The notes: generated by a model not told the origin, from the letters alone. DNA of 50,008 nucleotides from Deltaproteobacteria bacterium (GCA_003135855.1 PNBD01000153.1:56315-106322); one strand, 5' to 3'. Shown: positions 24,156-46,739, counted from the first letter of the stretch. Translations and numbers: made by a program.

Positions 24156-24303
24156 CGTCGCGGATTATAGCATCGTCGAGCGCCGGCCGCCTTCAACTGC
24201 GAGTTCGCGAGGATTACCCCAAAACGCCAAATCGTTGCTATTGAGACAGTCTGCAATCGTATCGAAACGTCCCGCGCAGCGGGCGCGCAGGAGGAATTAC
24301 ATC

Positions 24304-25134
24304 ATGGGCAAACTAGACGGAAAGGTAGCGGTTATCACCGGCGCAGCGAGCGGGATGGGTCGCGCGACCGCGCTCCGATTCGCGAAAGAAGGCGCATCGA
24401 TCGTGCTCGCCGACTTGAATTCGCAGGGCGGCGAAACCGCCGTGGCGGAATGCGCGGCGGCCGGCGCGCGCGCAGTCTTCCAGCGCGTCGACGTGACCAG
24501 TGAGGTGGATATCAAAAGCGCAGTCGATCGCGCGGTGAAGGAATACGGGCGACTCGACATCATGTTCAACAATGCCGGTATCGCCGGTGCCGTCGGTCCC
24601 ATCGAGAAAGTTGAATCAACCGACTGGGACAAAACCATCGCTACACTGCTGCGCGCGGTCTTCCTTGGAATGAAATATTCGATTCCCGAGATGCGCAAAG
24701 CCGGCGGCGGCTCGATCATCTCGACCGCCTCGGTCGCGGCGCTCCAAGGCGTCGGTTATTTGGCGGCGTACGCGGCGGCCAAGGCAGCGGTAGTGAATCT
24801 CACCGCGTCAGTGGCGATCGAACTCGGGCACGATCATATCCGCGTCAATTGCATCTGCCCCGGCGGCGTTAATACTCCGCTGATTCATCGCGGAGCGCCG
24901 GGCGCTTTCGAACACGCCGAGGCGCGCATGGCGAAAGCGCAACCGATTCCGCGCGCCGGTCGCCCCGACGATATCGCCAACATGGCGCTGTTTCTCGCGT
25001 CGGACGAAGCGGAATGGATTACCGGCACCGCGATGGTCGTCGATGGCGGAATGGCTACGGGCAACACCCGCTTCCGGACGCGTGGACTGCCCGACAGCGG
25101 CTTCTCCGGCCCGTCCTTTGAAATGGGCTCATGA
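24304..25134 (+). CDS. Short-chain dehydrogenase/reductase
   Basis: ORF 24235..25134; start ATG 24304 after AGGAGG; GKVAVITGAASGMGRATALRF, NNAGIAG, YAAAK. Confidence 0.93.
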   Translation: MGKLDGKVAVITGAASGMGRATALRFAKEGASIVLADLNSQGGETAVAECAAAGARAVFQRVDVTSEVDIKSAVDRAVKEYGRLDIMFNNAGIAGAVGPIEKVESTDWDKTIATLLRAVFLGMKYSIPEMRKAGGGSIISTASVAALQGVGYLAAYAAAKAAVVNLTASVAIELGHDHIRVNCICPGGVNTPLIHRGAPGAFEHAEARMAKAQPIPRAGRPDDIANMALFLASDEAEWITGTAMVVDGGMATGNTRFRTRGLPDSGFSGPSFEMGS

Positions 25135-25273
25135 AATTGGCAAAAGGCCGACCTTTCGGGAGGCACGAGCGCCGCGAGTCCCGAGTCCGGAGCTTAGCGG
25201 AGGCGAGGGCAACAGGAATTAGTCAATCTCGAACGACCTATTATCAGTGGCAACGTAAAGCGAGGAACTTGAA

Positions 25274-26116
25274 ATGGGCAGACTGAGCGGCAAAGTTGCA
25301 ATCATCACCGGCGCGTCGAGCGGAATGGGACGAGCGACTTCAATCCGGTTCGCCGGCGAAGGCGCGTCAATCGTAGTCGCGGACCTCAATCAGGAAGGCG
25401 GCGAAGCATCCGTTCGTGAGTGCAAGGAGAACGGCGGCAACGCGGTGTTCCAGAAGACCGACGTTTCCGCCGAAGCGGAAATCAAGGCGCTGGTCGCGCG
25501 CGCGGTCAAGGAATTCGGCCGCGTCGATATCATGTACAACAACGCGGGCATCGGCGGCGCGGTCGGACCGCTTGAAGAGATCTCAGTCGAGGATTGGGAC
25601 AAGAGCCAGGCAGTTTTGCTGCGCGGCGTGTTCTTAGGCATCAAGCATTCGGTACCCGAGATGCGCAAAGTGGGCGGCGGATCGATTATTTCGACGGCCT
25701 CGGTTGCGGGCCTGCGAGGCTTCCAGGGCCTGCACGCCTACTGCGCCGCGAAGGCCGGCGTGGTGAATCTGACTCGCTCGGCGTCGCTGGAATTCGCCAA
25801 GGACAAAATCCGCATCAATTGCATCTGTCCGGGCGGAATCAACACGCCGATCCTCCATCGCAATCAGCCCGGCGTGAAGGAAGCGATGGAGGATTTTCTC
25901 GCTAAGGGTCAGCCGTATCCTCGCGCAGGACATCCGGAGGACATTGCCGCGATGGCGTTGTTCCTCGCGAGCGACGATTCAGAATTCGTTACCGGACAAG
26001 CGATGGTCGTGGACGGCGGCCTCACCGTGGGCAGCGGCTTTGCGAATCAGCGGACCGACACTGCGCAGCAGATACTACCGCCGCGCGGCTTCATGGGACC
26101 GTCATTCGAGGGCTGA
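25274..26116 (+). CDS. Short-chain dehydrogenase/reductase (paralogue of the upstream SDR)
   Basis: 280-aa ORF; GKVAIITGASSGMGRATSIRF, NNAGIGG, YCAAK. Confidence 0.93.
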   Translation: MGRLSGKVAIITGASSGMGRATSIRFAGEGASIVVADLNQEGGEASVRECKENGGNAVFQKTDVSAEAEIKALVARAVKEFGRVDIMYNNAGIGGAVGPLEEISVEDWDKSQAVLLRGVFLGIKHSVPEMRKVGGGSIISTASVAGLRGFQGLHAYCAAKAGVVNLTRSASLEFAKDKIRINCICPGGINTPILHRNQPGVKEAMEDFLAKGQPYPRAGHPEDIAAMALFLASDDSEFVTGQAMVVDGGLTVGSGFANQRTDTAQQILPPRGFMGPSFEG

Positions 26117-26235: not shown

Positions 26236-27243
26236 TCATGGGCGCGGATAGCCCGGTAATCGCACCTGCATCGCGGTCGGATATTCAGGGGCCGGGGCGC
26301 TCGCCTTATCCAACGCGGCGATCTCAGCCGCTTCGAGCCGAAAGCCGATCGTGCCGAGATTCTGCTCGTTTTGCTCTTCCGTGCGAGCGCCGTAAATTAC
26401 CGAGCTGACGCTGCGCTGCTGATTCACCCACGCCAGCGCGACCTGCGACACGGGACGCCCGCGCTCCTTGGCGATCTGCTCGACCGCCTCGAGCGTCGAG
26501 TAATTGCGCTCGTTGGCGAGCCGTCCCCAAATATCCTGCTTCGCAAGCCGGCTATCCTCTGGTGGCCGCTGACCCGATCGATACTTGCCGGTCAGAAATC
26601 CTCCGCCGAGCGGACTCCACGGGATCACGCCGACGCCTTCCGCAACGCACGACGGCAGGATCTCCCGCTCGACGTCGCGCGAAATCAAACTGTATTGCGG
26701 CTGCAGGCAATCGAAGCGCGCGAAATCGTGTTTGTCGCTGACCCACAAGCTCTTCATCAGTTGCCAAGCCGTGAAATTCGACGCACCGATGTACCGAACT
26801 TTGCCTTAACGCACCAAATCGTCGAGCGCGCGCATCGTCTCCTCGATCGGCGTCTCGAAGTCCCACGAATGCACCTGGTACAGATCGATGTAATCCGTCT
26901 TCAAGCGTCGCAAGCTGTTTTCGACTTCCGACATGATATGGCCGCGCGAAAGCCCAATTTGATTCGGCGGGACCGGCTTGCCGATAAAAGCGTTCGCGTT
27001 GAAGCGAACTTTCGTCGCAACCACCAGCGAATTTCGCCGCTCGCCTAATATATTTCCAAGAATCGCTTCGGACGCGCCCGCCGCATACACATTCGCCGTA
27101 TCGAGAAAATTGCCGCCAACGTCGATGAAACGATCGAGTATTTTTCGAGCAGTGGCTTCATCAGTCTCACGTCCAAACGTCATGCATCCGAGGCACAGTT
27201 CTGAAACTTTCAATCCAGTGGCACCAATTCGACGATATTCCAT
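26236..27243 (-). pseudogene. Aldo/keto reductase interrupted by one in-frame TAA
   Basis: ORFs 26806..27243 ([24 protein letters not shown]...ALDDLVR*) and 26236..26757 are in the same frame; reading past TAA (26806-26808) gives ...DDLVR*GKVRYIGASNFTAWQLMKSLW..., contiguous AKR sequence. Confidence 0.85.
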
Positions 27244-29233: not shown

Positions 29234-29734
29234 ATGAGCGCCATCGACATCATCAAGCGCCGTCTCAAGGAAGATCGCGTTCCCGAGACTCCCGACGAAA
29301 TCAGCCGCAAAAAGAAACGCCCGCGCGAAGTCGCGTTCATGGACGTGAACCTGTGCTTCCCCTGCGGCAAGTGCCCGGAGTTTTGCCCCGTTCAATGCCT
29401 CGAATACATGCGGCCGGGATCGGTTCCCGGGCGTGGCGTTCAGCCGGTGCAGGATCGCTTCCAGGAATGCATCGGATGCTACATCTGCGTCGAGGTATGC
29501 GCCCTGCTCACCGACTACGACGCGATCCGGATGTACGACTCGAACATGGTCGAGGACGTGCTCGGCGTGAAAATCACTGACACTCCGCCGGACCCTCCGA
29601 TCCCCGCAGAGCCGTACGAAGAATATTTTTCCGAGGGTGGCTTGTATCGGCACCTCGGCAAGGGCTCGCGCATTCGCGAGAAGATGACTGCCGAAGAGCG
29701 CGCAATTTTCGCCCGCGAACGCGTCCGCAGCTAG
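29234..29734 (+). CDS. Ferredoxin-like protein with two 4Fe-4S-type Cys clusters
   Basis: 166-aa ORF; CFPCGKCPEFCPVQC and CIGCYICVEVC. Confidence 0.82.
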   Translation: MSAIDIIKRRLKEDRVPETPDEISRKKKRPREVAFMDVNLCFPCGKCPEFCPVQCLEYMRPGSVPGRGVQPVQDRFQECIGCYICVEVCALLTDYDAIRMYDSNMVEDVLGVKITDTPPDPPIPAEPYEEYFSEGGLYRHLGKGSRIREKMTAEERAIFARERVRS

Positions 29735-29895
29735 GCGCACTATTTTCCCGCGCTTCACAGTTCAGCTTGCTTACGCACACATTTATCCACAGTTGAGGCC
29801 GCTCGCGCCACTAAAACCGCCCCATACTCGAGCCCCAGATTTGACAGTCGCGCTCATCCCCTACTACGGTAGAATTTCCGAGGGACCACACCGCG

Positions 29896-30546
29896 ATGGA
29901 ACGTAACGCCCGGCGCGCGCAAGTATTGCGCCACGCCAAACGCATATTCGCTCGCAAGGGCTATCACCGGACCAACGTCGCGGATATCATCGCTCGCGCG
30001 CGAATCGCACGCGGCACTTTTTATCTCTACTTCCAGAACAAGAAGGATCTCTTTGAGGAATTGCTCGAGCAAGTGGTGACCGAACTGACGCGACGAATCG
30101 AGCGGCTCCGCGTCGGACCAGCCGAGCCTGACCCGGTGCAACAATTGCGCGCGAATCTCAATCGAGTGCTGAGCTACGTTCTCGCGGAGCGCGAGCTTAC
30201 CGACATCCTGCTCAATCATTCGACCGGTTTCGATCGCGAGCTCGATGAAAAAATTCAGGATTTCTACGATCGGATCGCGGCGTTGATTAAGCGCTCGCTG
30301 GATCTCGGTATCGAGATGAACCTGGTGCGAAGTTCCGATACGCAGGTGGTCGCTTATTGTATTCTCGGCGGAATCAAGGAGGCGATCGCGGTGCTCTCGC
30401 GCAGCCGCCAGAAAGATATTTCGGCGCTGGTCGAGCAGATTCTCGACTTCGGTCTGCGCGGCGTCGCCCGCCCCGAGTTGCTCGAGGCGGTTCGAGCAAT
30501 GGGCGACACCTCATCGAAATTCGCTTCTTTTTTGGGCCCCAACTAG
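29896..30546 (+). CDS. TetR/AcrR-family transcriptional regulator
   Basis: 216-aa ORF; RRAQVLRHAKRIFARKGYHRTNVADIIARARIARGTFYLYFQNKKDLFEELL. Confidence 0.95.
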   Translation: MERNARRAQVLRHAKRIFARKGYHRTNVADIIARARIARGTFYLYFQNKKDLFEELLEQVVTELTRRIERLRVGPAEPDPVQQLRANLNRVLSYVLAERELTDILLNHSTGFDRELDEKIQDFYDRIAALIKRSLDLGIEMNLVRSSDTQVVAYCILGGIKEAIAVLSRSRQKDISALVEQILDFGLRGVARPELLEAVRAMGDTSSKFASFLGPN

Positions 30547-30552
30547 ACTGAC

Positions 30553-31359
30553 ATGTCAGTTTATCAACGTCAGCAACCGGCCAGGACGCCACGCCATGCC
30601 CGAGCGATTTCACCTCGGCGGCGCGCCGCATTCTACGATCTCGACGGCACCCTGATGGACCTGAACCTGGTGCACGCCGCGCTCTTCACCTTCACCAATA
30701 TCGGCGAATGGGGCCGGCGCGTGTCCTACATGATGGCCTTCGTCTCACGCCTGCCGCGCATGTATATCGCCGAACGCCGAGACCGGCGCCTGCTCAATAT
30801 CGTGCTGTTCGAAGCGTTCAAGGGAGTCTCGCGCGACCGGCTGTTTTCGTTGGGCGAGGAATACTGCGAGCGGGTGCTGATTGCTCATCTTTATCCGCGC
30901 GCAATCGAAATGATCGAAGCGAATCGCGCCGCCGGCATCGAACCCGTGCTAGTGACCGGCTCGCCGGATTTCATCGTCGCCCCGCTTGCGGAGCATCTCG
31001 GTATCGACGCGTTCGCGGCGAATCAGTTTATCTTCAGCCGCGGACGCGCAACCGGCCGTCTCTCGGAGCCGATCATGGCCGGCGAGGAGAAAGCAGTCTG
31101 GTGCGGGAAGTGGGCATCGGAGCGCGGAATGGATCTGGCCGACTGCTGGGGCTATGCCGACTCGCACCATGACATGGCGTTTCTGAACGCTATGGGGCAT
31201 CCGGTCGCGGTGAATCCGGATCGCAGACTCAAGGCGGTCGCGATGAACCGGCAGTGGCCGGTGATTCATTTCAAGAAACAATCATCGAAAAACGACAACG
31301 ACTTTTACAACCATTACGACTTCGACAAGTCGACTAGGGAATCGGATGGCGCGACCTGA
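30553..31359 (+). CDS. HAD-IB family hydrolase (SerB-like)
   Basis: 268-aa ORF; AAFYDLDGTLMDLN, LVTGSPDFIVAPLAEHLG, GYADSHHDMAFLNAMGHPVAVNPD. Confidence 0.92.
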   Translation: MSVYQRQQPARTPRHARAISPRRRAAFYDLDGTLMDLNLVHAALFTFTNIGEWGRRVSYMMAFVSRLPRMYIAERRDRRLLNIVLFEAFKGVSRDRLFSLGEEYCERVLIAHLYPRAIEMIEANRAAGIEPVLVTGSPDFIVAPLAEHLGIDAFAANQFIFSRGRATGRLSEPIMAGEEKAVWCGKWASERGMDLADCWGYADSHHDMAFLNAMGHPVAVNPDRRLKAVAMNRQWPVIHFKKQSSKNDNDFYNHYDFDKSTRESDGAT

Positions 31360-32986
31360 AAGTAAGCTCATGGAACTCAAACCCGCCGAGCTTCGGCACG
31401 AGGTCGGCGCGCGCCGCGACCTGGTCGTGACGCTGAATCGCCGCTCGGAAAAGCGCCTGATTCCCTACGGCGAGGAGTTTCTGTTCGAGAAATTGCCGGT
31501 CGGTACGCGCGTGATTTATCCGCCGCCGCCGCTCGATCCGCTTGCTGATCCCGATCAGGCGATTCGCTACGCCCTGCTCCATCCGGAAAATCAGGATCCG
31601 CTGTTCGCGCAACTCAATCCCAACATGCGCGTCACGATCGCGATCGATGACCTCAGCCTGCCGCTGCCTCAGATGCGCCGTCCCGACATTCGCGAGCGGC
31701 TGCTTAACCAGGTTCTCCAGACGCTGGCCGATTACGGCGTCGACGACGTGCATCTGGTCATCGCCACTTCGCTCCATCGCCGCATGACCGAGGCGGAAAT
31801 CCGCCGCATCGTCGGCGAACGCGCATTCAAGCAGTACTGGCCCGACCGTCTTTACAATTTCGACGCTGAGAATCGCGCGGAACTCGCGATGCTCGGCAAG
31901 ACCGAACATCAGGAGGAAGTCTGGCTGTCGCGACGCGCCGCCGAATCGGATCTCGTCATTTATCTGAACGTCAACCTGGTGCCGATGGACGGCGGGCACA
32001 AGTCGGTGGCCGTCGGCCTCGCGCCGTATCAAAGCCTGCGCCATCACCACAACGCCGCGACGCTCCGCGATTCGCATTCGTACATGGATCCGACACGATC
32101 GGCGCTGCATCGATCATCCGATCGGATGGGCAAGCTGATTCACAAGTCGCTCAACATTTTTCAGATCGAAACCGCCGTCAACACTCAGATGTACGGCGGG
32201 ATGCTCGATTTCCTGCAGAAAAACGAAGACACCTTCAACGACTGGGATCACACGCGGCTCAAGGGATTTCAGTGGACGATGCGCAATATGTCGAACGACC
32301 TGCGGCGGCGCGCTCTCCACAATTACGCGGCGCCCTTCGGCATGATTGGCGTCTGGGCCGGCGATACCGAGGCGGTTCATCAGAAAACTCTCGCCAAGGT
32401 TTTTCAGCAGTACGCCGTGCCGGTGAAAGGACAAGCCGACATCCTGATTGTCGGCGTCCCGTATATCTGCCCTTACAACGTGAACTCGATCATGAACCCG
32501 GTGCTGGTCCAGTGCACCGGCCTCGGCTACCTGTTCAACATGTATCGCAACAAGCCGCTGGTGCGCGAAGGCGGCACGATGATCATCTGTCATCCGCTGC
32601 GTGACGAGTTTCATCCGGAGCATCATCCGAGCTACATCGAATTTTTCCATCGATGCCTCGCCGAGACGACTGACGCGATCGAACTCGAGAAGCAATTCGA
32701 GCGCGAGTTCGCGCACAACCCGACTTATATCCACATGTACCGCTACGGAAACGCGTACCACGGCGTGCATCCGTTCTACATGTGGTACTGGGGTGAGCCC
32801 GCGCGCCAGCACGTCGGCCGCGTAATCGCAGCCGGATGCGAAGAGCCGGAAATTGCGGCGCGCATGGGATGGGACGCCGCGGACACGCTCGATGAAGCGA
32901 TCGCGATGGCGACCTCGGAACTCGGGCGGTCGGCGTCGATCACGTACCTGCATCTGCCGCCGCTGGTGATCGCGGATGTCGAGTAG
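31346..32986 (+). CDS. LarA-like (DUF2088 / nickel-pincer racemase superfamily) protein
   Basis: 546-aa [99 protein letters not shown]; alternative start 31370. Confidence 0.65.
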
Positions 32987-35900
32987 CAACGGCAAGCGCA
33001 ATGGCGCCGCGATGCCGCCGCTCGAGCAAATGCTCAAGGGCCGCCGCATCCTTGTGACCGGCGCGACCGGCTTCCTTGGCAAAGTCTTCGTCGCGCTGCT
33101 CCTTCGATGGCATCCCGAGATTGACAAAATTTACTTGCTCATCCGCGGCGACGCGCGTAGCACCCTCAATCGCTTTCGCCGGGAAATTCTTGACTCGCCG
33201 GTGATGGGTCCGCTGCGCGAGCATCTCGGCGAAGAATTTGACCGTTACGTCGAAGAAAAACTCGCCGTCGTGCCAGGCGACATAACGAACGTTGGTCTGC
33301 TCGCCGAAGGCGAGAAGCCGTTCAAGGCGGGCTCGATCGACGCGGTCGTGCACAGCGCCGGTTTCGTCAACTTCGAAGCGTCGTTGGAAAAGGCGCTCGA
33401 GGTCAACACCATCGGTGTCGCCAACGTGATCGAATTCTGCCGCCAAATCGGCGCCGCCATGATGCTGATATCGACCTGCTACGTCGCGGGCGCCGCCGAT
33501 GGACATCGCTACGAGGACGACCTCCCCGAGAACTGGTGCCCGAATGGGCGCAAATCATTTCGCCTGGATCGCGAAATCCGCGAATCGCTCGCCGTGATCG
33601 AACGGGTCGAGGCCGAATCGCGCGATCAACTTCGTCATACCGAATTTCAGGGAGACGATGACGACGCCGAGAGCACGCGCGAGGCTGCGATCGAGAATCG
33701 CCGCAAGACCTGGGTCGACACCCGTCTGAAGGAAATCGGTAAGAAGCGCGCGCGAAGCTGGGGATGGCCGAATACCTATAGCTTCACCAAGAGCCTCGGC
33801 GAGCAGTTGGTGATCGCAGAGCGCGACGCGCTCAAAGTCACTGTCGTGAGGCCCGCGGTAATCGAAAGCGCGATGCACGATCCGTTTCCCGGCTGGAACG
33901 AAGGCGTCAATACTAGCGCGCCGCTCACCTACCTGTCGGGACGCGGTTATCGCTTCTATCCCGCCAAGGCGGAACTGGTGCTCGACGTGATTCCAGTCGA
34001 TTACGTTGCGCACGCGATGATTCCGATTCTCGCCGTGCTGATTGCGGGCAAGCAAAAATCGATCTATCAACTCTGCACCTCCGATCGAAATCCGCTCCCG
34101 ATGCGCCAACTCGTCGAGCTGACCGGACTCGCCAGCCGCAAACAGCTTCGCAAAGATGGCGGCGTGATGGGCTGGCTGGCGCCCCAGCTCGAGGCCGTCG
34201 TCGTTTCGCAGCGCACTTACGATCTCGCGAGCGACACGATGCCGCGAATCCTCAAGCAGGGCGCGGAATTCGCGCGCAGTGTCCTGGGCGAGGAAAATCA
34301 GCCGGCGAAAAAGCTTCACAGCGGAATCGTGAAAATCAAGGAGACGATGGATCTCGCCCGCGACATGGTCGACATCTATCAACCATACATTCAGAAGCTC
34401 TTTTACACTTTTCACGGCAAGAACACTCGCGACCTTTACGCATCGCTCCGCCCCGCCGACGTCGAGCATCATCCGTATCGCCCCGACTTGATCGATTGGC
34501 ACGACTACTGGCTCAACATTCATATGCCCGGCCTGCGCCGGCACATCTATCCGCAGCTCGATATCCATACGCGCGGCCGTTACAAATCGTTGCCCCGCTA
34601 TCGCAACCTGGTGGATTTGCTTGATCGAGCCGCGGACCGATACGGCGCGCAAGTCGCGATGATCGCGCGGCGGCCGTCGGGTGAGCAGTCGCAGGTCACT
34701 TATCGCGAGCTGCGCGATAAGGCGCGTCGCGCCGCGCTGTTGCTGGCCACGCGCGGCATCAAGCCCGGCGATCGCGTCCTGCTTATCGCTGAGAACTCGC
34801 CCGACTGGGTGCTCGGCTATTTCGCGATTCTGTGCGCGGGCGCGATCGCCGTCCCGCTCGATCACCTGATGTCAGCCGAGGAACTCGCACCAATATGTAA
34901 AATCGCTGAACCGTCGGCGGCGCTTCGCTCGGCAACGGTCCACCAGCGCCTCGGCAGTGCGATCAAGGACGCGGTCCCAAAAATCGTCGAGCTGGATCTC
35001 GCCGAACTAGGCCGCCCCTTCATTCTGCGCGGCGATACGAAATCTCCGCCTGCGCCTCCGGAACGCAAGGCGCTCGCATCGATCGTGTTCACTTCCGGCA
35101 GCACCGGCGCGCCGAAAGGCGTGATGCTGACGCATGGCAACTTCGGCGCCGAGATCGCGATGCTCTCGCGCGTCTTCGTGCTCGGTGGCGACGACGTCGT
35201 CCTGTCGCTGTTGCCGTTGCATCATACGTTTGAATTCACCTGCGGGATGCTGCTGCCGCTCGCCAGTGGCGCCACGATCGCGTATCCGCTCGAAGTCGAT
35301 GCGAAGACGCTATCGCGAACGCTCGCCGATATTCGCCCAACTGCGCTCATCGGCGTGCCCGCCGTGTGGGAAGCGATTCATCGCCGCATCATCGACGAAG
35401 TCGAAGCGCGCGGTCCGTTCTTCCACGCTGCGTTCGATCGATTGCGCGATCTGAATCGGCGACTCGACTCGGACTACGGTCTGAATTTCGGCTCGATCGT
35501 TTTTCGCCAGATGCACTCCGCGCTCGGTGGCCGGCTGAAGCTGGCCGTTAGCGGTGGCTCCGCCCTGCCCCACCGCGTCGCGGATTTTTTTAACGACATC
35601 GGAATTCCGCTGCTCGAAGGTTATGGAATGACCGAAGCGGCGCCCGTGCTCGCAGTTGCCAGGCCTGACGAGCCGCTCAAGGTGGGATCCGTCGGCAAGC
35701 CGCTGAACGGCGTCGAGATCAAGCTCGAGCCTGAAGGCGAGCAGGTCGGCTCGATCGTTGTGCGCGGCTCCAATGTGATGGCGGGTTACTATCGGAACGA
35801 TGTCGCCACCGGCGAAGTTCTCAAAGACGGATGGCTGCACACCGGCGACCTCGGCCGCTTCGACGACGAAGGCCGGCTCTACGTCGTCGGTCGCGCGAAG

Positions 35901-37346
35901 GAAGTCATCGTCGATTCCGGCGGCAACAACATCTATATCGAAGAGGTCGAAGAGGCGTACGGCCGCTCGCACTACGTGAAAGAGATGGCCGTCGTGGGCC
36001 TCAATGTCGGACGCAGCGAGCAGGTTGCCGCGCTGGTCGTGCCGGCGTATGCGCGCGGTGAAAGCCGGCGCGCCGTCGAGGATCGGCTGCGCGGTGATTT
36101 CGAAAAGGTTGGCAAGGAACTCAGTCTGCATAAGCGCATCAGGATCGTTCGCTTCACCGACGTCGAACTGCCGCGCACTCGCACCCGCAAGATCAAACGA
36201 CCCGAAGTGGTGGCGATTTTGCGCCGGATGCTGGAAGCGCGCATCGCGAACGCAACAGTTGTCGACACCGAAGTCGAGCAATGGCTCGCAGATGCGCTTG
36301 CCAACATAACCAGCGAGCCGGTTAGTATCACCCTGGGCACGCAGCTGATCGAGGATTTGGGCCTGGACTCTCTGGCGATGGCCGAAATCGGCGAAATAAT
36401 CGGCGAGCGCGCCGGCCGCGATATCAGCCCGGAAGAAATCTCAGACCTGCGGACGGTCGCCGACTTGCAGCATCTCGCGTCGCAGCCGGGCGTCAACGGA
36501 CGTCCCCGGCTGCCGTCCTATGCGCGATTCGCCGAGCCGTACACGATTCAGTTGCCGGCACCGCTGCGCACGCTTGGCCGCTCGGCGTTGCGTTCGACGC
36601 AGCGCGCGCTGTTCGAAGGATGGCTCAAGCCGCAGATTCTCGGACGCGGAAACATCCCGGCCAACAGCAATTTTATCGTGGTGGCGAACCATTCCAGCCA
36701 TCTCGACTTCGGACTCGTGGGCTATGCGCTCGGCAAGATTGGCGACGACCTGCGGGTGCTCGCGGCCAAGGATTATTTCTTCAACACGCCGGCGCGGCGA
36801 TTTCTCGCGAGCAATTTCACGTCGCTGATGCCGTTCGATCGCGAGCGCGCGCAGCTCGAATCGCTCGAAGATGCGCTCGCGGAGTTGGCCAAGGGCCGCA
36901 GTGTCCTGATGTTCCCCGAGGGCACCCGCTCGCCCGGGAACGAGGTGCAGGAATTCAAGAGCGGCGCGGGATTTCTCGCGCTGCGCAGCCGATGCGACGT
37001 GCTGCCGGTGCTGATTCGCGGCACGCACGAGGTGCTGGGCAAAGGAAGTCTGTTCCCGCGGCGCCATCCAGTCGAGGTGCGCATCGGCGCGCCGATCACG
37101 GCGGCGACGATGCTTGAGGTAGTCGCCAGCACCGACGGTGCGGGCGCGTACCGCAAACTCGCCGACCTGATGCGCGAAACGGTGGTGCGGCTCGCTGGTT
37201 CGGGCCGACAGACGCGCCGCGTGAAGGCGCCGGCTGTCGCCGACGCGCCGGTTGTTTCGAGTCCTGTTGTATCCGATCCTGCAGCGCCCGAGCGGCGGCA
37301 GGGACATCCGGCGCATCGCACGACACACGGGCGCGCCAAAGCCTGA
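32976..37346 (+). CDS. Multidomain fusion: NAD(P)-dependent acyl reductase (NAD_binding_4) - AMP-dependent acyl-CoA/ACP ligase - acyl carrier domain - PlsC acyltransferase
   Basis: 1456 aa; GRRILVTGATGFLGKVFVALLLR and YSFTKSLGEQLV; IVFTSGSTGAPKGVMLTHGN and DGWLHTGDLGRFD; LIEDLGLDSLAMAEIGEIIG; VVANHSSHLDFG and FPEGTRSPG. Confidence 0.93.
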   Translation: MSSSNGKRNGAAMPPLEQMLKGRRILVTGATGFLGKVFVALLLRWHPEIDKIYLLIRGDARSTLNRFRREILDSPVMGPLREHLGEEFDRYVEEKLAVVPGDITNVGLLAEGEKPFKAGSIDAVVHSAGFVNFEASLEKALEVNTIGVANVIEFCRQIGAAMMLISTCYVAGAADGHRYEDDLPENWCPNGRKSFRLDREIRESLAVIERVEAESRDQLRHTEFQGDDDDAESTREAAIENRRKTWVDTRLKEIGKKRARSWGWPNTYSFTKSLGEQLVIAERDALKVTVVRPAVIESAMHDPFPGWNEGVNTSAPLTYLSGRGYRFYPAKAELVLDVIPVDYVAHAMIPILAVLIAGKQKSIYQLCTSDRNPLPMRQLVELTGLASRKQLRKDGGVMGWLAPQLEAVVVSQRTYDLASDTMPRILKQGAEFARSVLGEENQPAKKLHSGIVKIKETMDLARDMVDIYQPYIQKLFYTFHGKNTRDLYASLRPADVEHHPYRPDLIDWHDYWLNIHMPGLRRHIYPQLDIHTRGRYKSLPRYRNLVDLLDRAADRYGAQVAMIARRPSGEQSQVTYRELRDKARRAALLLATRGIKPGDRVLLIAENSPDWVLGYFAILCAGAIAVPLDHLMSAEELAPICKIAEPSAALRSATVHQRLGSAIKDAVPKIVELDLAELGRPFILRGDTKSPPAPPERKALASIVFTSGSTGAPKGVMLTHGNFGAEIAMLSRVFVLGGDDVVLSLLPLHHTFEFTCGMLLPLASGATIAYPLEVDAKTLSRTLADIRPTALIGVPAVWEAIHRRIIDEVEARGPFFHAAFDRLRDLNRRLDSDYGLNFGSIVFRQMHSALGGRLKLAVSGGSALPHRVADFFNDIGIPLLEGYGMTEAAPVLAVARPDEPLKVGSVGKPLNGVEIKLEPEGEQVGSIVVRGSNVMAGYYRNDVATGEVLKDGWLHTGDLGRFDDEGRLYVVGRAKEVIVDSGGNNIYIEEVEEAYGRSHYVKEMAVVGLNVGRSEQVAALVVPAYARGESRRAVEDRLRGDFEKVGKELSLHKRIRIVRFTDVELPRTRTRKIKRPEVVAILRRMLEARIANATVVDTEVEQWLADALANITSEPVSITLGTQLIEDLGLDSLAMAEIGEIIGERAGRDISPEEISDLRTVADLQHLASQPGVNGRPRLPSYARFAEPYTIQLPAPLRTLGRSALRSTQRALFEGWLKPQILGRGNIPANSNFIVVANHSSHLDFGLVGYALGKIGDDLRVLAAKDYFFNTPARRFLASNFTSLMPFDRERAQLESLEDALAELAKGRSVLMFPEGTRSPGNEVQEFKSGAGFLALRSRCDVLPVLIRGTHEVLGKGSLFPRRHPVEVRIGAPITAATMLEVVASTDGAGAYRKLADLMRETVVRLAGSGRQTRRVKAPAVADAPVVSSPVVSDPAAPERRQGHPAHRTTHGRAKA

Positions 37347-37367: not shown

Positions 37368-38216
37368 ATGATGAAGCGCGCAGGAGCGATTGCTTTCGCG
37401 ATTGTCTCGCTCCTGCTGCTCCATCCGGCGCCGACGCGCGCGTGGGACAATCGAACGCATCGCGAAATTGCGCAGCTCGCGATCGAGCGACTCCCGCCGT
37501 CGCCGCTGAAGGATTATTTCCTCGCGAACGATGAGCGCCTGCGCCGTCTGTCGGTCGAGCCCGACTCGATTTTGAAGCATCGCTACGGCAAGGCCGAGCA
37601 GATTCGCCATTACATCAATATCGAGTACTTCGGCGCGGACCCGTTCGCCGCGATTGTGGCGGATCGCCAGGCGATGGAGCGGAAATTTGGCGTATCGACC
37701 ATGCAGCACGCCGGTACGCTGCCGTGGACAATCGAGGAAGTTGCCGAGGGGCTACATCAGGCGTGGGCGCGCGGTGACTGCGAGCAGGTGCTGCAACAGG
37801 CCGGTTATTTGGCGCATTACGTGGGCGACGCGAGCCAGCCGCTTCATTCGACGATTCTATTTGATGGCTATCGGCGCGACCGCGGGATGCACGCGCGGAT
37901 CGAACTGGCGGTAGATGATCACATCGATGAAATCGGCATCGCGGCGAGCCGCGAGACGAAGGCGCCAGCTATCGATTCGGTGTGGCCGCCGGTGATCGCG
38001 CAGATTCGCGAAGCCAATTCACATGTCGAAGAATTGATTCAAGCCGATCGCTCCGCCCGCAATGGCGGTTCGCGCCGGGACTATGAGGAGGCGTTCATCG
38101 GGCGCGAACGGACGCTGGTTGTGAGCGAGGTCGCGAGCGCCGCCTCGCTGCTGGCCTCGATTTGGTTGTTCGAATGGAAGCATTCCGGCAGTCCGGCGAA
38201 ATGCTCCAGTCAGTAA
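37368..38216 (+). CDS. S1/P1-type nuclease family protein (secreted)
   Basis: 282-aa ORF; signal peptide; WDNRTHREIAQLAIERLP, AHYVGDASQPLHSTILFDGYRRDRGMHARIE. Confidence 0.82.
   Translation: MMKRAGAIAFAIVSLLLLHPAPTRAWDNRTHREIAQLAIERLPPSPLKDYFLANDERLRRLSVEPDSILKHRYGKAEQIRHYINIEYFGADPFAAIVADRQAMERKFGVSTMQHAGTLPWTIEEVAEGLHQAWARGDCEQVLQQAGYLAHYVGDASQPLHSTILFDGYRRDRGMHARIELAVDDHIDEIGIAASRETKAPAIDSVWPPVIAQIREANSHVEELIQADRSARNGGSRRDYEEAFIGRERTLVVSEVASAASLLASIWLFEWKHSGSPAKCSSQ
38114..38146 (+). repeat. Dispersed repeat inside 3' end of the S1/P1 gene; second copy at 38659-38691
   Basis: gctggttgtgagcgaggtcgcgagcgccgcctc vs gctggttgttagcgaggtcgccagcgccgcttc: 30/33 identical by eye. Confidence 0.8.
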
Positions 38217-40646: not shown

Positions 40647-41483
40647 CTAGGGCTTTTGCTCGGATTCCGACCTAATGGCGGTGGCGATGTCGCTGCTCAT
40701 CTGCGCGAGAGCGCGGCTATGAGCGGCGGCGAGCACCTCGAAGCTATCGCCTTGCACCGGCTCGCGCGCGACCGTGCGGCCCGAGCGCGAGTCTCCGCCG
40801 ACCGCGGTCTTGCGTACGGTCCATACCGCCTCGAGCAGCGTTGCCTGGCCGCGAATCGAGTCGAAGCGTTGGACATCGATGGTGACCCGGTAGTCCGGGT
40901 TGAAGTTGGCGAGCTGGGTGGTCGCTACCTCCGGCGTCCCGAGCAAGGTTGCGAGATCGCCGGCGACGGCGCGCGCGATCGCATCGCTAAGCGGCGCGAC
41001 CCATCGGTTGAACTCTTCCACCTCGACGCGATTCGGTGCGACCTGCACCACGAACTCCGGCTGGTCAACCGAAGCGGGGATGGAGACCGGCCCGACCATC
41101 ACGGTGGCGCGCGAGGCCGCGTGGCCGTCCGCGATCGCGGTGGAGTCTAGGTTGTAGAAGCGGGCCGGCGTCGAGGTGCCGCATCCGGCTAGAGCGACGG
41201 CGATAACGACGAGCGAGATGAGATGCGCGATGCGGGCTGCTATCACTTGGCCTCTTATCACTTGGGCTCCTTTTATTGCTGTGGCCGCGCGAGCCAAGGA
41301 CCGCTTCGCGGTTCCGAAACCGGTACCGGCATCTTTATCTTGTAGCGATTCGGAAAGCGGACCCTCTCCTGACGTCTCACCGCTGCGCGTTGTTCGGCGT
41401 CGTCCTTTCCCGGACTGGGAGAGGGGAAGAACGGCTATTACTTGGCCTATCAATTGCCGACCTATGATTTGGCCTACTATCAC
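40647..41483 (-). CDS. pqiC: ABC-type transport auxiliary lipoprotein, PqiC-like (real start probably internal)
   Basis: SLVVIAVALAGCGTSTPARFYNLDS lipobox; ARATVMVGPVSIPASVDQPEFVVQVAPNRVEVEEFNRWVAPL; N-terminal ~70 aa is repeat-derived. Confidence 0.8.
   Translation of the reverse strand: MIVGQIIGRQLIGQVIAVLPLSQSGKGRRRTTRSGETSGEGPLSESLQDKDAGTGFGTAKRSLARAATAIKGAQVIRGQVIAARIAHLISLVVIAVALAGCGTSTPARFYNLDSTAIADGHAASRATVMVGPVSIPASVDQPEFVVQVAPNRVEVEEFNRWVAPLSDAIARAVAGDLATLLGTPEVATTQLANFNPDYRVTIDVQRFDSIRGQATLLEAVWTVRKTAVGGDSRSGRTVAREPVQGDSFEVLAAAHSRALAQMSSDIATAIRSESEQKP
41348..41428. repeat. Intergenic repeat copy B (pair with 40535-40615)
   Basis: Same-orientation near-identical sequence, lying within the called N-terminus of pqiC. 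Confidence 0.85.
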
Positions 41484-43075
41484 TTGGCCTGCCCCTGCTT
41501 GCCGCGGAGCAGCGCCTCGGGATGGCGCTCGAGATAGTCGGCGAGCACGCGCACCGAGCGGGCCGCACGGGTCAACTCCTGCAGCGTAGTGTTCAGTTTT
41601 TCGATCTGCACGGAATTCGGCTGGATGATGCCGTTGGCGCTATCGAGGGTGCCGTGGGCGCTATCGAGCGTACCGCGGGCGCTCGCGAGGGTCAGGTCGA
41701 GGTCGGCGATAGCTTTGCGGAGGTTGTCGCCGATTTCCTTCAAGGGCATCTGGTCGATCTTCTTGATGATGCTCTCGACGCTGGCCTCGACCTCGGTGAA
41801 CTGTCCCTGAATGGTCGGCAACTGCACCGGCTTTTGCGACCAATCGACGGTCACGGGCGGCGCGCCGGGAAAAAAGTCGAGCGAGACGAATGTGGCCCCG
41901 GTCAGCAAGTTACCGGTACGAAGCTGGGCGCGGACTCCGTGGGCTATGAGCGAGTCGATTAACTTGCGACGCATCGTGTCGAGGTTCACGACCGGACCGA
42001 GATCGAAGATTTTGACCCCGAGTTTGCGCGGGTCGAGGCTGATCGTCACCGGCACCGAGAACTGGAAGGTCTTGAGATCGATTTGCGCGTTGATGTCGGT
42101 GACCTCGCCGATCGGAATGCCGCGGAACTCGACCGGCGCTCCCGGCACGAGCCCGCGCGTCGAGTCCTTGAAGATGAGCTGGTAGGTCTGCGGATTGCGC
42201 GGCGGCGGATTGAAGGCCTCGGCGCGGTTGCCGTAGAGGGTGAAGACGGCGTTGTCCTCGGACGGCGGCAAGACCAGGACGCTGGACGGGGCGGTCTCGA
42301 ACGCGATGCCGCCAATCAGGATCGACAATACCGACTGGGTCTGCATACTGAGGCCGTTGGCGGAGAGTGACAGGTCGATTCCGCTCGCGTGCCAGAAGCG
42401 GGTATCGGGGTTGACGTACTGATCGTAGGGCGCCTGCACGAAGACCTTGACGGTCAGAAACTTGCCGTCCTTGTCGAGTTCGTACGACGCGACCTGGCCG
42501 ACCTGGAGGCGTCGGAAATAGATCGGCGTGCCGGTGTCGATCGAGCCTAAGTCGGCGGTCTTCAGGATAAAAAAGCGGCCGGGGAATTCGCCGGTAATCA
42601 CCGGCGGGGTTTCGAGCGCAACGAAGTCGCTCTTGCTCTCTTGCGAAGTGCCGATCTCCACGCCGATGTAGGCGCCTGAGATGAGGGTGCCGAGGCCCGT
42701 TATGTTGGCGCCCGAGATGCGAGGGCGGACGACCCAGAACTTGGTATCGGCGAGCAGGAATGCGTCGGTCTTGGGCGCCATCTGCGCGGTGGCGATCGCG
42801 CGCTGGTGATCCTCCGATAGGCGAATCTTGGTGACGGTGCCGATATCGACGCCGTTGTAGTGAATCTTGGTTTTGCCAGCTTCCAGCCCTTCGGCAGATC
42901 GGAAGACGATCGTTATTTTGGGCCCCTCGCTCATGACCCTGGTCACTGCCACCCATACGCCGACCAGCGCCGCGACGATCGGGATGATCCAAACCAACGA
43001 GAGCCGCGTGCGCTTTTTGGGCACAGCTCTCGACTCGGGGACTGAAGGGAGTGATGGTGGGTCGCGATCAGGCAT
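41480..43075 (-). CDS. pqiB: MCE-domain intermembrane transport protein PqiB
   Basis: 531-aa ORF; N-terminal TM; three MCE-like repeats (GPKITIVFRSAEGLEAGKTKIHYNGVDIGTVTKI; DTGTPIYFRRLQVGQVASYEL; DSTRGLVPGAPVEFRGIPIGEVTDI). Confidence 0.92.
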   Translation of the reverse strand: MPDRDPPSLPSVPESRAVPKKRTRLSLVWIIPIVAALVGVWVAVTRVMSEGPKITIVFRSAEGLEAGKTKIHYNGVDIGTVTKIRLSEDHQRAIATAQMAPKTDAFLLADTKFWVVRPRISGANITGLGTLISGAYIGVEIGTSQESKSDFVALETPPVITGEFPGRFFILKTADLGSIDTGTPIYFRRLQVGQVASYELDKDGKFLTVKVFVQAPYDQYVNPDTRFWHASGIDLSLSANGLSMQTQSVLSILIGGIAFETAPSSVLVLPPSEDNAVFTLYGNRAEAFNPPPRNPQTYQLIFKDSTRGLVPGAPVEFRGIPIGEVTDINAQIDLKTFQFSVPVTISLDPRKLGVKIFDLGPVVNLDTMRRKLIDSLIAHGVRAQLRTGNLLTGATFVSLDFFPGAPPVTVDWSQKPVQLPTIQGQFTEVEASVESIIKKIDQMPLKEIGDNLRKAIADLDLTLASARGTLDSAHGTLDSANGIIQPNSVQIEKLNTTLQELTRAARSVRVLADYLERHPEALLRGKQGQAK

Positions 43076-43766
43076 AGGTAACCTCTTTCGAATCTGCCGC
43101 TTGCGAGCTTGCAGAGTCCCAGATCAGGCGCGGATCGAAGGACTCGACCGCGAGCATCGTCAGCACCACCACCGCCGCAAAGAAGATCAAGCCGGGACCC
43201 GGCTCGACCGACATCAGCGGCTGTAGTTGGATAAGAGCGGCGGTGAAGGTATCGACGAATACATCGACCATCGACCAGCGTCCGATCAACTCGACCATCC
43301 GGTAGAGCCGGACGCGCTGCTCGTTGTTGGCGACCGAGCCGCGCTGGGCGGTGACGAGCAGGTATGCGAGCGCCAGAATTTTTGCGCTGGGGATCATGAT
43401 GCTCGCGACGAGCACGATGATCGACAAGGGCCATCCGGTCGGCGACCATAGGAGCACAACGCCTTGCATGATGGTGTCGGACTCGGCGCCGGCGGCGGTA
43501 GTGGTCGTCAAGACGGGAAGGACGTTGGCCGGGATGTAACAGATCGCGGCGCCGATCAAGTAAGCCCAGGTGCGCTGGAAACTGGCGGACTTGCGGAAAA
43601 CGAGCTCCTCATCGCATCGCGGGCATCGTCCTTCGTCCTCGCCGGGGCGTCCTTCGTCCTCGCCGGGGCGCCCTTCGTCCTCGCCAGGCATAGGACGCGA
43701 GAGCAGGCCGCATCCTTCGCAGCTTTGCAGGCCTTGCTGCATCGCGGTCGCGGCGGCCGGACTCAC
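43068..43766 (-). CDS. pqiA: PqiA-domain membrane protein (second half)
   Basis: ORF 43068..44036 but GTG at 43766 overlaps the upstream TGA (GTGA); zinc-ribbon-like CEGCG...CPRC; four TM; ITxIMQGVVLLWSPTGWPLSIIVLVASI. Confidence 0.87.
   Translation of the reverse strand: MSPAAATAMQQGLQSCEGCGLLSRPMPGEDEGRPGEDEGRPGEDEGRCPRCDEELVFRKSASFQRTWAYLIGAAICYIPANVLPVLTTTTAAGAESDTIMQGVVLLWSPTGWPLSIIVLVASIMIPSAKILALAYLLVTAQRGSVANNEQRVRLYRMVELIGRWSMVDVFVDTFTAALIQLQPLMSVEPGPGLIFFAAVVVLTMLAVESFDPRLIWDSASSQAADSKEVTYA
43621..43690 (-). repeat. 21-bp tandem repeat x3 inside the second pqiA gene
   Basis: (G/C)TCCTTCGTCCTCGCCGGGGC-type units encoding PGEDEGR x3 between the Cys pairs. Confidence 0.9.
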
Positions 43767-44560
43767 GCGGGCTCCTTGGCCATACCATCGCCGGCGGCGG
43801 GTCGCTGCGCTTCGTCCGCCCACTGGATCTTCTCCCACACCTCGCGCGAGTCGAAGGCGGCTTGCATCGCGGCCAGCAGAAAGACCAGCACCCATAGAAC
43901 GAACAGCGCAACGCCCGGGATCACCGTCGCGTAATCCGCAATCTTGACCAGCGCGACGAGCACGCCGACCATCATGACTTCGATCATGCTCCAGATCCGC
44001 GTAGTTGGGTGATGGCGCAGCAGCGCACCGACCCATCGCGGCGGGCGTTCGCGCCGACCGGCGAGCACGATCGCGAGCATCAGGCCGATTTGCAGCGCCG
44101 GTGCAATCACGGCGGTGAAGAGCACCAGTATCGCGACGATCTGCTGGTCGTTATCCCACAGATGCTTGGCGCCTCCGATCACCGTAGTGGACGCATCGCG
44201 CCCGACGATCGTAAGGCCGAGCATCGGCACGGAGTTCGCAACGACGTAGAGCACTGCGGCCGCGAGCGTCAGCGCAAGCGTCCGATTGAGCGAATCCTCG
44301 CGGCGGCGCCAGAGCTCCTTGTTGCAACGCGGGCATCGCGCAGACGCGCCGGGCGCGAGATCGGGAAGGCGCTGCAGCAAATCGCAGTGCAGACACGCGA
44401 TGAGCCCGTGGTCGCCAACTGGCTGATTGTAGGCTTCGCTACTCAATTCGCTGAGCGATCGCCAAATTGCGATATGAGGTGAGTCAAACTTTGTCGGCCC
44501 CTTTCGGTTGCGATTCGGCAGAACCGGGATGAGTTTCCCGCCCGGCGCGGTCGGTTGCAA
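43763..44560 (-). CDS. pqiA: PqiA-domain membrane protein (first half)
   Basis: 265-aa ORF; LIACLHCDLLQRLPDLAPGASARCPRCNKELWRRREDSLNRTLALTLAAAVLYVVANSVPML. Confidence 0.9.
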   Translation of the reverse strand: MQPTAPGGKLIPVLPNRNRKGPTKFDSPHIAIWRSLSELSSEAYNQPVGDHGLIACLHCDLLQRLPDLAPGASARCPRCNKELWRRREDSLNRTLALTLAAAVLYVVANSVPMLGLTIVGRDASTTVIGGAKHLWDNDQQIVAILVLFTAVIAPALQIGLMLAIVLAGRRERPPRWVGALLRHHPTTRIWSMIEVMMVGVLVALVKIADYATVIPGVALFVLWVLVFLLAAMQAAFDSREVWEKIQWADEAQRPAAGDGMAKEPA

Positions 44561-44752
44561 TATCAGCCGTGGGTGGTCAGATCACGAAGCGGCGACATGG
44601 TGCTAAGAAACGGCGCGCGAAGGCGACGTCGATCTACTTCGAGGACCGGATGGATTGAAGTTCGAGGTGGTCCATCAGCCGGCGATTGTGAGGAGACACG
44701 GGGAGCTGATGCGCCTGGCGGAACAGGCGATGAAGCACTGAAGGGGAGGACT

Positions 44753-45022
44753 TCAGGCGCCGGGCTTTTCCGCGTCGTGGGCGTGGCCGATCGCGTGGCG
44801 AAGGCGGCGATCGAGCTTGGCGCAATTCAGGATGACCTTTTCCGATTGCACCGAATCGACGGCGCTCAATGGGACCGTGAAGTCGCCGGCATTCTCGACA
44901 TAGATTACCAACTCGGGCCGGCCGTCCGGCGAGACCACACGAACGGCGCCGAACTCCTCGCTGCCATCGGAAGTAAACGCCTGGAATCCAACTTTAATTT
45001 TTTCTTGCATGATGTGACTCAC
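44753..45022 (-). CDS. Small uncharacterised protein
   Basis: 89-aa ORF; SHIMQEKIKVGFQAFTSDGSEEFGAVRVVSPDGRPELVIYVENAGDFTVPLSAVDSVQSEKVILN; protein-like composition, start may be the internal Met. Confidence 0.6.
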   Translation of the reverse strand: MSHIMQEKIKVGFQAFTSDGSEEFGAVRVVSPDGRPELVIYVENAGDFTVPLSAVDSVQSEKVILNCAKLDRRLRHAIGHAHDAEKPGA

Positions 45023-45118
45023 TCTCCGCTGCGCAAGGGTCAGGACGATGAGATCGTCTCTACCTTCTCGAGCATCCGCTTAAATCAGTTTGGAGTCGAA
45101 TCGGGCGCAGGAGGCGGC

Positions 45119-45370
45119 TCAGATCTTCAGGACTGACCGGAAACGGACCTTGCCCGACATCATGCGGTCGTAGCCGTCGGCCGCGCGCTCCAGCGGGAAG
45201 ACCTCGATCATCGGGCGAACGCCGCTCAGCGCGGCGAATCTGAGCGCGTCTTCCGAGTCCCGGGAAGTTCCTGACGGCCAGCCGATGATCGATTTGCGCG
45301 CCCCGAGTAACTGTAACGACGAAACCGCGAACGGCTCCGGGCTCGCGCCCACGATGACGCGCTGTCGAGG
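45119..45370 (-). pseudogene. C-terminal remnant of a zinc-type (MDR) alcohol dehydrogenase
   Basis: VIVGASPEPFAVSSLQLLGARKSIIGWPSGTSRDSEDALRFAALSGVRPMIEVFPLERAADGYDRMMSGKVRFRSVLKI matches the MDR C-terminus; no N-terminal catalytic or Rossmann part. Confidence 0.75.
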
Positions 45371-45430
45371 TAGCTGTGCGCGCTTCGGTGATGGCGCTGG
45401 AATACTGGCATTGCGCATGGTTACATTTGG

Positions 45431-45967
45431 GTGATGGATTGGTTCAGCAAGCGCCACGACGATACGCCACGGCCGTCGCGCGGCAAACGCCGTCCCTCGG
45501 TCAGCATAATCTCGCCGGAACTGCTGGTCGGCGAATATCCCGGTCACGACGATATCGAGTGGCTGAAAGATACTTACGGTGTCACTGCGGTCCACAATCT
45601 TCAGGACGACGAAGACTTGCGACTCAACGGACTCGACTCAAAGCGGCTTAGCGAGGAGTACGAAGAACACGGAATCGATTTCGTGCGCACGCCAATCCAG
45701 GATGGCAGCGCCGACGCGATGGCCGAACGGCTTGAGGCCGCGCTGCACGATCTGCGCGATCTGGTTGGAACCGGCGCCGTCGTCTACCTGCATTGCAACG
45801 CCGGGATGAACCGCGCGCCGACGTTGGCAATCGCGTTTCTGCGCGCGTATCGCAAAATGTCGCTCAATGAAGCGATGGCGATGGTGAAGAAGCAGCGGGC
45901 GTGCGGTCCCTTCATGACGGTGCTGGAAGAATATTTCGGGCCGCGCGATTTCAAGCCGGACGAATGA
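45431..45967 (+). CDS. Dual-specificity/tyrosine phosphatase-like protein
   Basis: 178-aa ORF; VVYLHCNAGMNRAPTLAIAFL (HCx5R). Confidence 0.88.
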   Translation: MMDWFSKRHDDTPRPSRGKRRPSVSIISPELLVGEYPGHDDIEWLKDTYGVTAVHNLQDDEDLRLNGLDSKRLSEEYEEHGIDFVRTPIQDGSADAMAERLEAALHDLRDLVGTGAVVYLHCNAGMNRAPTLAIAFLRAYRKMSLNEAMAMVKKQRACGPFMTVLEEYFGPRDFKPDE

Positions 45968-45968
45968 C

Positions 45969-46739
45969 TTGAGCTCGCGAGCCGCAGCCGAAGATTTTCC
46001 CGGAGCAATCACCAGAGAGAGGCTGCTCACGATCTGCGCATGGGGAGTGCATCTGTACACCGGACTCGGCGCGGCGCTCGGCCTGCTCGCGATCTATTAC
46101 GCCGCGATTCATGACTACCGTGCGTCGTTCCTCGCGATGGGGGTTGCGACGATCATCGATTCGAGCGATGGCCCACTCGCGCGCCTGCTGCAGGTCAAGA
46201 CGCGAGTGCCCTCCTTCGACGGCGCGTTGCTCGACAATATCGTCGATTACCTGACCTATACGGTGGCGCCGGTGTTCCTGATGCTCGAGGCGAACATCAT
46301 TCCCGGCACGCGAGTCGGTCTGCTGCTCGCATGTTTCGTGATGCTCGCGAGCGTTTACGGGTTTTGCCAGACCAACGCCAAAACCGACGACCATTATTTT
46401 CTTGGGTTCCCGAACTATTGGAACCTGGTCGCGTTCTATCTCTACTGCCTCGATCTGGGGACCGCGTTCAACGTCGCGGTCCTGCTGATACTCGGCGTGA
46501 TGGTGTTCGTCCCGCTCAGGTATATTTATCCGAATCGCACGGTGCCGCTGCGACCGCTGACGCTCACGCTCGGAATCGTATGGGCGGTGGTGACGGTCGC
46601 GATGCTGCTGATGCTGCCCACGATAAATTCTCTGATGCTCGCGCTATCGCTTAGTTTCATCGTGTACTACTTCCTTGCGTCGTTTGCGCTTCATGCTCGC
46701 GCGCTGCATGCCCGCGCCGCGTTGAGGGTCGCGCGCTAG
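45969..46739 (+). CDS. CDP-alcohol phosphatidyltransferase (phosphatidylcholine synthase-like)
   Basis: 256-aa ORF, TTG start; DSSDGPLARLLQVKTRVPSFDGALLDNIVDYLTY = DGxxAR...G...D...D motif; multi-TM. Confidence 0.85.
   Translation: MSSRAAAEDFPGAITRERLLTICAWGVHLYTGLGAALGLLAIYYAAIHDYRASFLAMGVATIIDSSDGPLARLLQVKTRVPSFDGALLDNIVDYLTYTVAPVFLMLEANIIPGTRVGLLLACFVMLASVYGFCQTNAKTDDHYFLGFPNYWNLVAFYLYCLDLGTAFNVAVLLILGVMVFVPLRYIYPNRTVPLRPLTLTLGIVWAVVTVAMLLMLPTINSLMLALSLSFIVYYFLASFALHARALHARAALRVAR

Follow-up and report, generated by a model that had tools for sequence, protein, structure and literature searches.

A putative ether-lipid operon of the elb type in a probable Binatota genome, with a LarA-like, likely NPN-binding protein as its ElbC counterpart

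Bacterial ether lipids act as development signals in myxobacteria. The elb operon of Myxococcus xanthus and its ElbD protein were reportedly described by Lorenzen et al. in 2014. The genes of this operon stand in the order elbA, elbB (HAD), elbC, elbD, and elbE, with elbC given as of 'unknown function' (PMC9131029), and the operon is cited as MIBiG BGC0000871 (PMC9426513). ElbD of M. xanthus combines a reductase, an acyl ligase, a carrier, and a PlsC domain (PMC9131029, PMC9426513). It is required for most of the ether lipid, its ligase and carrier activities have been measured, and an elbD-dependent fatty aldehyde has been reported in Myxococcus (PMC9131029). In the same organism ElbA has been reported as dispensable, and an elbB insertion was partially rescued by elbD alone, with no elbC mutant described (PMC9131029); depending on polarity, ElbC is therefore possibly not strictly needed. 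How ElbD-dependent bacteria get from a fatty acid to an alkyl ether lipid is stated as unknown (PMC9131029). Clusters with elbD have also been reported from sponge symbionts of the Acidobacteriota and Poribacteria, where the elbD homologue is flanked by hydrolases, dehydratases, and oxidoreductases and a LarA component is not named (PMC9426513). Pontiella carries elbD-like genes, yet no ether lipid was detected (PMC11868695). Ether lipids of bacteria, the brGDGTs, are also used as climate proxies (PMC10087280).

The window studied here is a stretch of 50,008 nucleotides from a Deltaproteobacteria bacterium (GCA_003135855.1, PNBD01000153.1:56315-106322). It holds a HAD gene (elbB) and a LarA-like gene (elbC) directly upstream of elbD, in the order of the elb locus (Table 1). 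The ElbB, ElbC, ElbD order, the overlapping or touching genes, and the four-domain ElbD are common to M. xanthus and the window. The window differs from the M. xanthus locus in that elbA and elbE are missing, a TetR gene leads, and ElbD is only 38–39% identical over its whole length to that of Myxococcus; the ElbC counterpart is 53% identical to that of Myxococcus vastator. No match of the NAD-dependent epimerase type to which elbA and elbE belong was found adjoining the core in Binataceae-type loci, the window included, and the claim therefore covers the elbBCD core and does not extend to a full elbA-E operon. The elb locus itself is already known, and the window would represent a TetR-led variant of it, without elbA and elbE, in Binatota. 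An earlier note on this DNA had suggested an unusual lipid pathway; the lipid part holds, but the pathway is not an unclassified one, as the genes correspond to elbB, elbC, and elbD, the core of the ether-lipid locus already known for ElbD.

Table 1. Features of the putative elb-type operon, in positions of the window
Feature	Position	Strand	Basis
Promoter, conserved	29841..29870	+	-35 TTGACA 29841-29846, 18-nt spacer, -10 TACGGT 29865-29870; 55 nt before TetR start
TetR-family regulator	29896..30546	+	PF00440 58 bits
HAD-IB phosphatase, ElbB counterpart	30553..31359	+	TIGR01490 over cut-off; motifs; 5' of LarAH
LarA-like protein, ElbC counterpart	31346..32986	+	NF052592 837 bits
Megaprotein, ElbD counterpart, 1456 aa	32976..37346	+	Pfam architecture
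ElbD domain 1, fatty acyl reductase NAD_binding_4, aa 27-348	33054..34019	+	PF07993 165.8 bits; TGATGFLG, YSFTK
ElbD domain 2, acyl-AMP ligase, aa 549-939	34620..35792	+	PF00501 272.7 bits; TSGSTGAPKG, YGMTE, HTGD
ElbD domain 3, acyl carrier, aa 1102-1164	36279..36467	+	PF00550 29.1 bits, cut-off 20.8; LGLDSL
ElbD domain 4, PlsC-type acyltransferase, aa 1223-1347	36642..37016	+	PF01553 82.4 bits; NHSSHLD, FPEGTRS
Possible fifth gene, S1/P1-nuclease / zinc phospholipase C-like	37368..38216	+	PF02265 31.3 bits

Analysis of the open reading frames of the window placed the TetR, HAD-IB, LarA-like, and megaprotein genes at exactly the positions first noted. The HAD and LarA-like genes overlap by 14 nt and the LarA-like and megaprotein genes by 11 nt, as had been stated before; the TetR stop and the HAD start are 6 bases apart by our count, not 7. 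Both overlaps were seen again at identical length in many of the 21 loci compared, and there is little or no intergenic room for promoters inside the operon. Upstream of TetR, a -35/-10 pair (a TTGAC(A/T) or GTGACA hexamer, a spacer of 17–19 nt, and TAnnnT) was present 45–57 nt before the start in all 20 distinct upstream regions of relatives, while shuffled upstream regions reached this pattern in a mean of 0.2 of 20 and a maximum of 3. The promoter of the window was not listed by a scan with a stricter sigma-70 consensus and was found by the comparison of relatives. The same gene order in family-level relatives, the recurring overlaps, and the promoter in all 20 regions argue that the four-gene arrangement is not due to chance. 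The four genes are probably co-transcribed and form a conserved functional unit in lipid metabolism, in agreement with the earlier note, and the pairing of HAD-IB with PlsC that it had described as recurrent in phospholipid metabolism is meaningful in such a unit.

Among close relatives the LarA-like gene was found over the cut-off in 21 of the 25 genomes of the window's family, the window's own genome counted. Conservation of the neighborhood had been proposed as a check, and wherever flanks were examined the order and strand of the four genes were unchanged. The best-kept product is the LarA-like protein, with 78–98% identity, compared with 53–89% for the N-terminal 500 residues of the megaprotein. 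The relatives include a 'Candidatus Binataceae' metagenome-assembled genome with a LarA-like protein 88% identical to that of the window, which makes Binatota the most likely lineage of this DNA. An S1/P1-nuclease-like gene lies directly 3' of elbD in 11 of the 19 Binataceae-type relatives with downstream sequence; in the window it starts 21 bases after elbD, its product has a signal-like N-terminus, and it may be a fifth gene of the operon. Just upstream of TetR (29234-29734), a small 4Fe-4S dicluster protein of 166 aa is encoded, which is 87% identical and in the same place in three relatives; the gene is absent beside the operon in most others. Elsewhere in the window, an apparent single aldo/keto reductase at 26236-27243 (- strand) is broken into two open frames (26806-27243 and 26236-26757), which would reflect a frameshifted pseudogene or a fault of the assembly, and two similar short-chain dehydrogenases stand in tandem on one strand at 24235-26116. 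Genes of lipid transport (PqiA and MlaD-repeat, PqiB-like) and, after them, a gene for a CDP-alcohol phosphatidyltransferase are located at 41480-46736, 4–9 kb from the operon.

The megaprotein matches the Pfam families NAD_binding_4, AMP-binding, AMP-binding_C, PP-binding, and Acyltransferase, each over its cut-off, and the active-site motifs are intact in all four domains. The HAD-IB protein matches TIGR01490 with 116.5 bits (cut-off 98.3) and carries the motifs DLDGT, TGS, and YADSHHD. For the TetR protein, which is conserved only in Binataceae-type loci, the best curated neighbor is FadR of fatty-acid metabolism (NF053878); the score of 67.8 bits is below the cut-off of 200, and the protein may nevertheless work in a FadR-like way. 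It is likely an autoregulator of the operon and would probably sense an acyl-CoA or an acyl product and control its own operon from the single promoter.

The identity of the third protein of the elb locus could be followed in Myxococcus. M. vastator (L101) has an epimerase, a HAD, a LarAH, ElbD (1474 aa), and a second epimerase in sequence, which is the full elbA-B-C-D-E order, and its third protein matches LarAH14/15/16 with 852 bits. A LarAH gene was found between the HAD and the ElbD reductase in 27 of 27 genomes of this genus. On this gene order, in named relatives and in the 27 genomes, ElbC is in all likelihood a LarAH14/15/16 protein. The literature searched, a limited collection, contained no link between LarA and ether lipids and no reading of ElbC as a single-histidine nickel-pincer-nucleotide (NPN) protein, and the database annotation of M. 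xanthus elbC may already name the domain.

The association also holds across phyla. A scan of GTDB species with an alignment of the LarA-like protein gave 80 loci from Binatota, Myxococcota, Acidobacteriota, Planctomycetota, Actinomycetota, Leptospirales, and others. A HAD gene was located within 2.5 kb upstream of LarAH14/15/16 in 69 of the 71 loci with enough sequence. Where both flanks were long (41 loci), the genes present were HAD (41), reductase (35), acyltransferase (34), ligase (28), and epimerase (23), so that a reductase was missing beside LarAH in six. Sub-cut-off LarA homologues from the same phylum had been tried as relatives of the operon; they were found without adjoining HAD, reductase, ligase, or acyltransferase genes and served as a control. 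None of 34 more distant LarA loci (seven had long flanks, the others about 1.5 kb) had any such partner. In Acidobacteriota ElbD is split, and a reductase, a carrier-ligase-acyltransferase, PlsY, HAD, LarAH, an epimerase, and an FBP aldolase occur together. A locus of Acidobacteria subdivision 13 (L127, 2585-12826) has the split ElbD, PlsY, and a class II FBP aldolase in one gene run, the aldolase pointing to triose-phosphate chemistry. ElbD is also split in Frankia, with a reductase-HAD fusion, an alcohol dehydrogenase, LarAH, and PlsC; the fusion, a fatty acyl reductase with HAD of 787 aa (L155, 5259-7622), is separated from the nearby LarAH by a zinc alcohol dehydrogenase. The exceptions are HAD-LarAH pairs with an AIRS-like gene in Planctomycetota and some Myxococcota pairs without ElbD in reach. 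In one planctomycete (L098, 8094-11675) HAD-LarAH is followed directly by an AIR-synthase-like gene and ElbD is not in reach; the pair may have a different use here. Two further loci (L135 and L140, downstream of 10650) combine HAD-LarAH with a gene for an acyl-CoA carboxyl transferase and lack ElbD within 9 kb. An apparent LarA fusion of 1302 aa in Planctomycetota (L097) was rejected, as its HAD match is in another frame and the fusion is merely a long open frame. A contig titled Comamonas sp. KCTC 72670 (L103, BNCN01000002.1) carries a Myxococcus-like elb operon with an elbE match of 655 bits, and its name is probably wrong.

The LarA-like protein matches NCBIfam LarAH14/15/16 (NF052592), a nickel-pincer-nucleotide family, over its full length (aa 27-546) with 837.5 bits against a cut-off of 740. 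No substrate is assigned to this family, and the second catalytic histidine is missing in the family and in the window's protein alike. With the correspondence to LarA residues taken from a HMMER alignment, the first catalytic histidine (H144), the NPN-linking lysine (K219), and the nickel-ligand histidine (H235) are kept; together with D101 they are invariant in 46 aligned sequences from many phyla. At position 210, where the second catalytic histidine would be, 45 of the 46 have Asn and one has Thr, and the neighboring N208 is invariant. LarAH groups 14 and 15 have been reported to be without the second histidine (PMC12611868), and a group-14 LarAH of Frankia was inactive on all hydroxyacid substrates with which it was assayed (PMC7583248). 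The AlphaFold2 model of the protein (pLDDT 90.9, pTM 0.90) has as its best PDB match 9q3k, an NPN-loaded single-histidine LarA (TM 0.76/0.86), followed by all other LarA structures. The best fold matches (9q3j, 9q2u, 9q3k; PMC12611868) are LarA proteins with a single histidine from Blautia wexlerae and Streptococcus plurextorum, which likewise have Asn in place of the second histidine; they differ in being only about 20% identical and in lying near sugar-metabolism genes, whereas the window's gene is in a lipid locus. LarB, LarC, and LarE are each present over their cut-offs in the genome, where the operon protein is the only LarA homologue. Of the 29 genomes with related loci, 28 encode LarC; in the control set 6 of 14 genomes do. 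A plasmid collection searched for relatives of the LarA-like protein gave only two weak matches. The lar genes, the invariant residues, the fold match, the missing second histidine, and the inactive Frankia enzyme indicate that the protein likely binds NPN and that racemization is unlikely. The 2-hydroxyacid-linked pathway of the earlier note is accordingly not supported by the missing histidine and the Frankia result.

As judged from sequence, the four genes quite probably constitute an elb-type ether-lipid operon (elbB-elbC-elbD, led by TetR, with one promoter) in which an NPN enzyme, ElbC, takes part, probably on a glycerol backbone. ElbD would activate a fatty acid to acyl-AMP, load it on its own carrier domain, and reduce it to aldehyde or alcohol, and would also acylate the glycerol backbone. 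ElbB would remove a phosphate from an intermediate. ElbC, whose place in the ether-lipid pathway we infer, would use its hydride-accepting NPN cofactor on the glycerol moiety. Alkyl-DHAP synthase (AGPS), an FAD enzyme unrelated to LarA, needs a C2 carbonyl for the exchange of acyl and alkoxide; its route, too, links a fatty alcohol with a glycerol backbone bearing such a carbonyl. By analogy, NPN of ElbC could take the C2 hydride of 1-acyl-glycerol-3-phosphate to give a C2 carbonyl, the C1 acyl group could then be swapped for a fatty alkoxide supplied by ElbD, and the hydride could be handed back to the same face of C2. One catalytic histidine suffices for a return to the same face, which fits the residues of ElbC better than racemization does. 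That ElbC is such an NPN ether synthase, acting by transient oxidation of the C2 hydroxyl, acyl/alkoxide exchange, and same-face hydride return, is a tentative proposal to which we give low confidence; alternatively, the backbone could owe its stereochemistry or its oxidation state to ElbC.

Other enzymes of ether-lipid formation were sought in the genome. A partial AGPS-like gene is present elsewhere (C11:1-960, L165), consisting of the C-terminal part at a contig edge with the motif THHHAVGR, and ElbC therefore need not be the only ether-forming enzyme. The idea that ElbC substitutes for a missing AGPS is weakened by this fragment. PlsA/PlsR and Ger give bacterial ether and vinyl-ether lipids by anaerobic ester-to-ether reduction; the corresponding family, PF09989, had no match in the window's genome. 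CarF also had no match there, and as the control genomes were equally silent its absence is not proven; on the lack of a match, alkyl rather than vinyl ethers would be expected.

Several other readings of ElbC and of the operon have been weighed against these data. One, rather unlikely in our estimate, is that ElbC acts on the C2 stereocentre of glycerol phosphates (sn-glycerol-3-P, sn-glycerol-1-P, dihydroxyacetone-P), interconverting or reading it and so giving ElbD and ElbB the right backbone, while the ether bond is made elsewhere. Transfer of a C2 hydride is typical of NPN enzymes, and PlsY with the class II FBP aldolase in the Acidobacteria locus would suit such triose-phosphate chemistry, but a single catalytic histidine is ill-suited to inversion. 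The same residue bears on the more improbable view of ElbC as a racemase or epimerase that acts on a 2-hydroxy acid (e.g., a 2-hydroxy fatty acid or glycerate) and thereby feeds ElbD. The characterized rest of the LarA superfamily does act in this way (PMC11770544) and NCBIfam names the family 'hydroxyacid isomerase', yet inversion needs two histidines and the second is absent in 46 of 46 aligned sequences, no activity on the tested hydroxy acids was detected for the Frankia protein, and the partner genes encode glycerolipid enzymes.

These partner genes also speak to the product of the operon. Reductase and ligase domains alone could yield fatty alcohols, and the operon might then make wax-ester-like or other reduced fatty products (alcohol, aldehyde) in place of ether lipids, with the LarA-like protein as an accessory; the PlsC domain, the HAD phosphatase, the PlsY neighbors, and the genetics of Myxococcus ElbD point instead to glycerolipids (PMC9131029), and we regard this reading as quite doubtful, even more so than a racemase. 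That the operon is a matter of accident or mere position, its genes sharing no function, is extremely improbable given the order kept across phyla, the gene fusions, the conserved promoter, and the empty control loci. An elb-type ether-lipid operon with ElbC as a participant is thus the preferred reading.

Seen as an NPN protein, ElbC joins the question of how the ether bond is formed with that of the LarAH groups that have no second histidine and no assigned reaction, and it offers a testable lead for both. If the proposed mechanism is true, bacteria would possess, in the ElbC ether synthase, a counterpart of alkyl-DHAP synthase that is not homologous to it, and ElbC would be the first NPN enzyme that is neither a racemase nor an epimerase.
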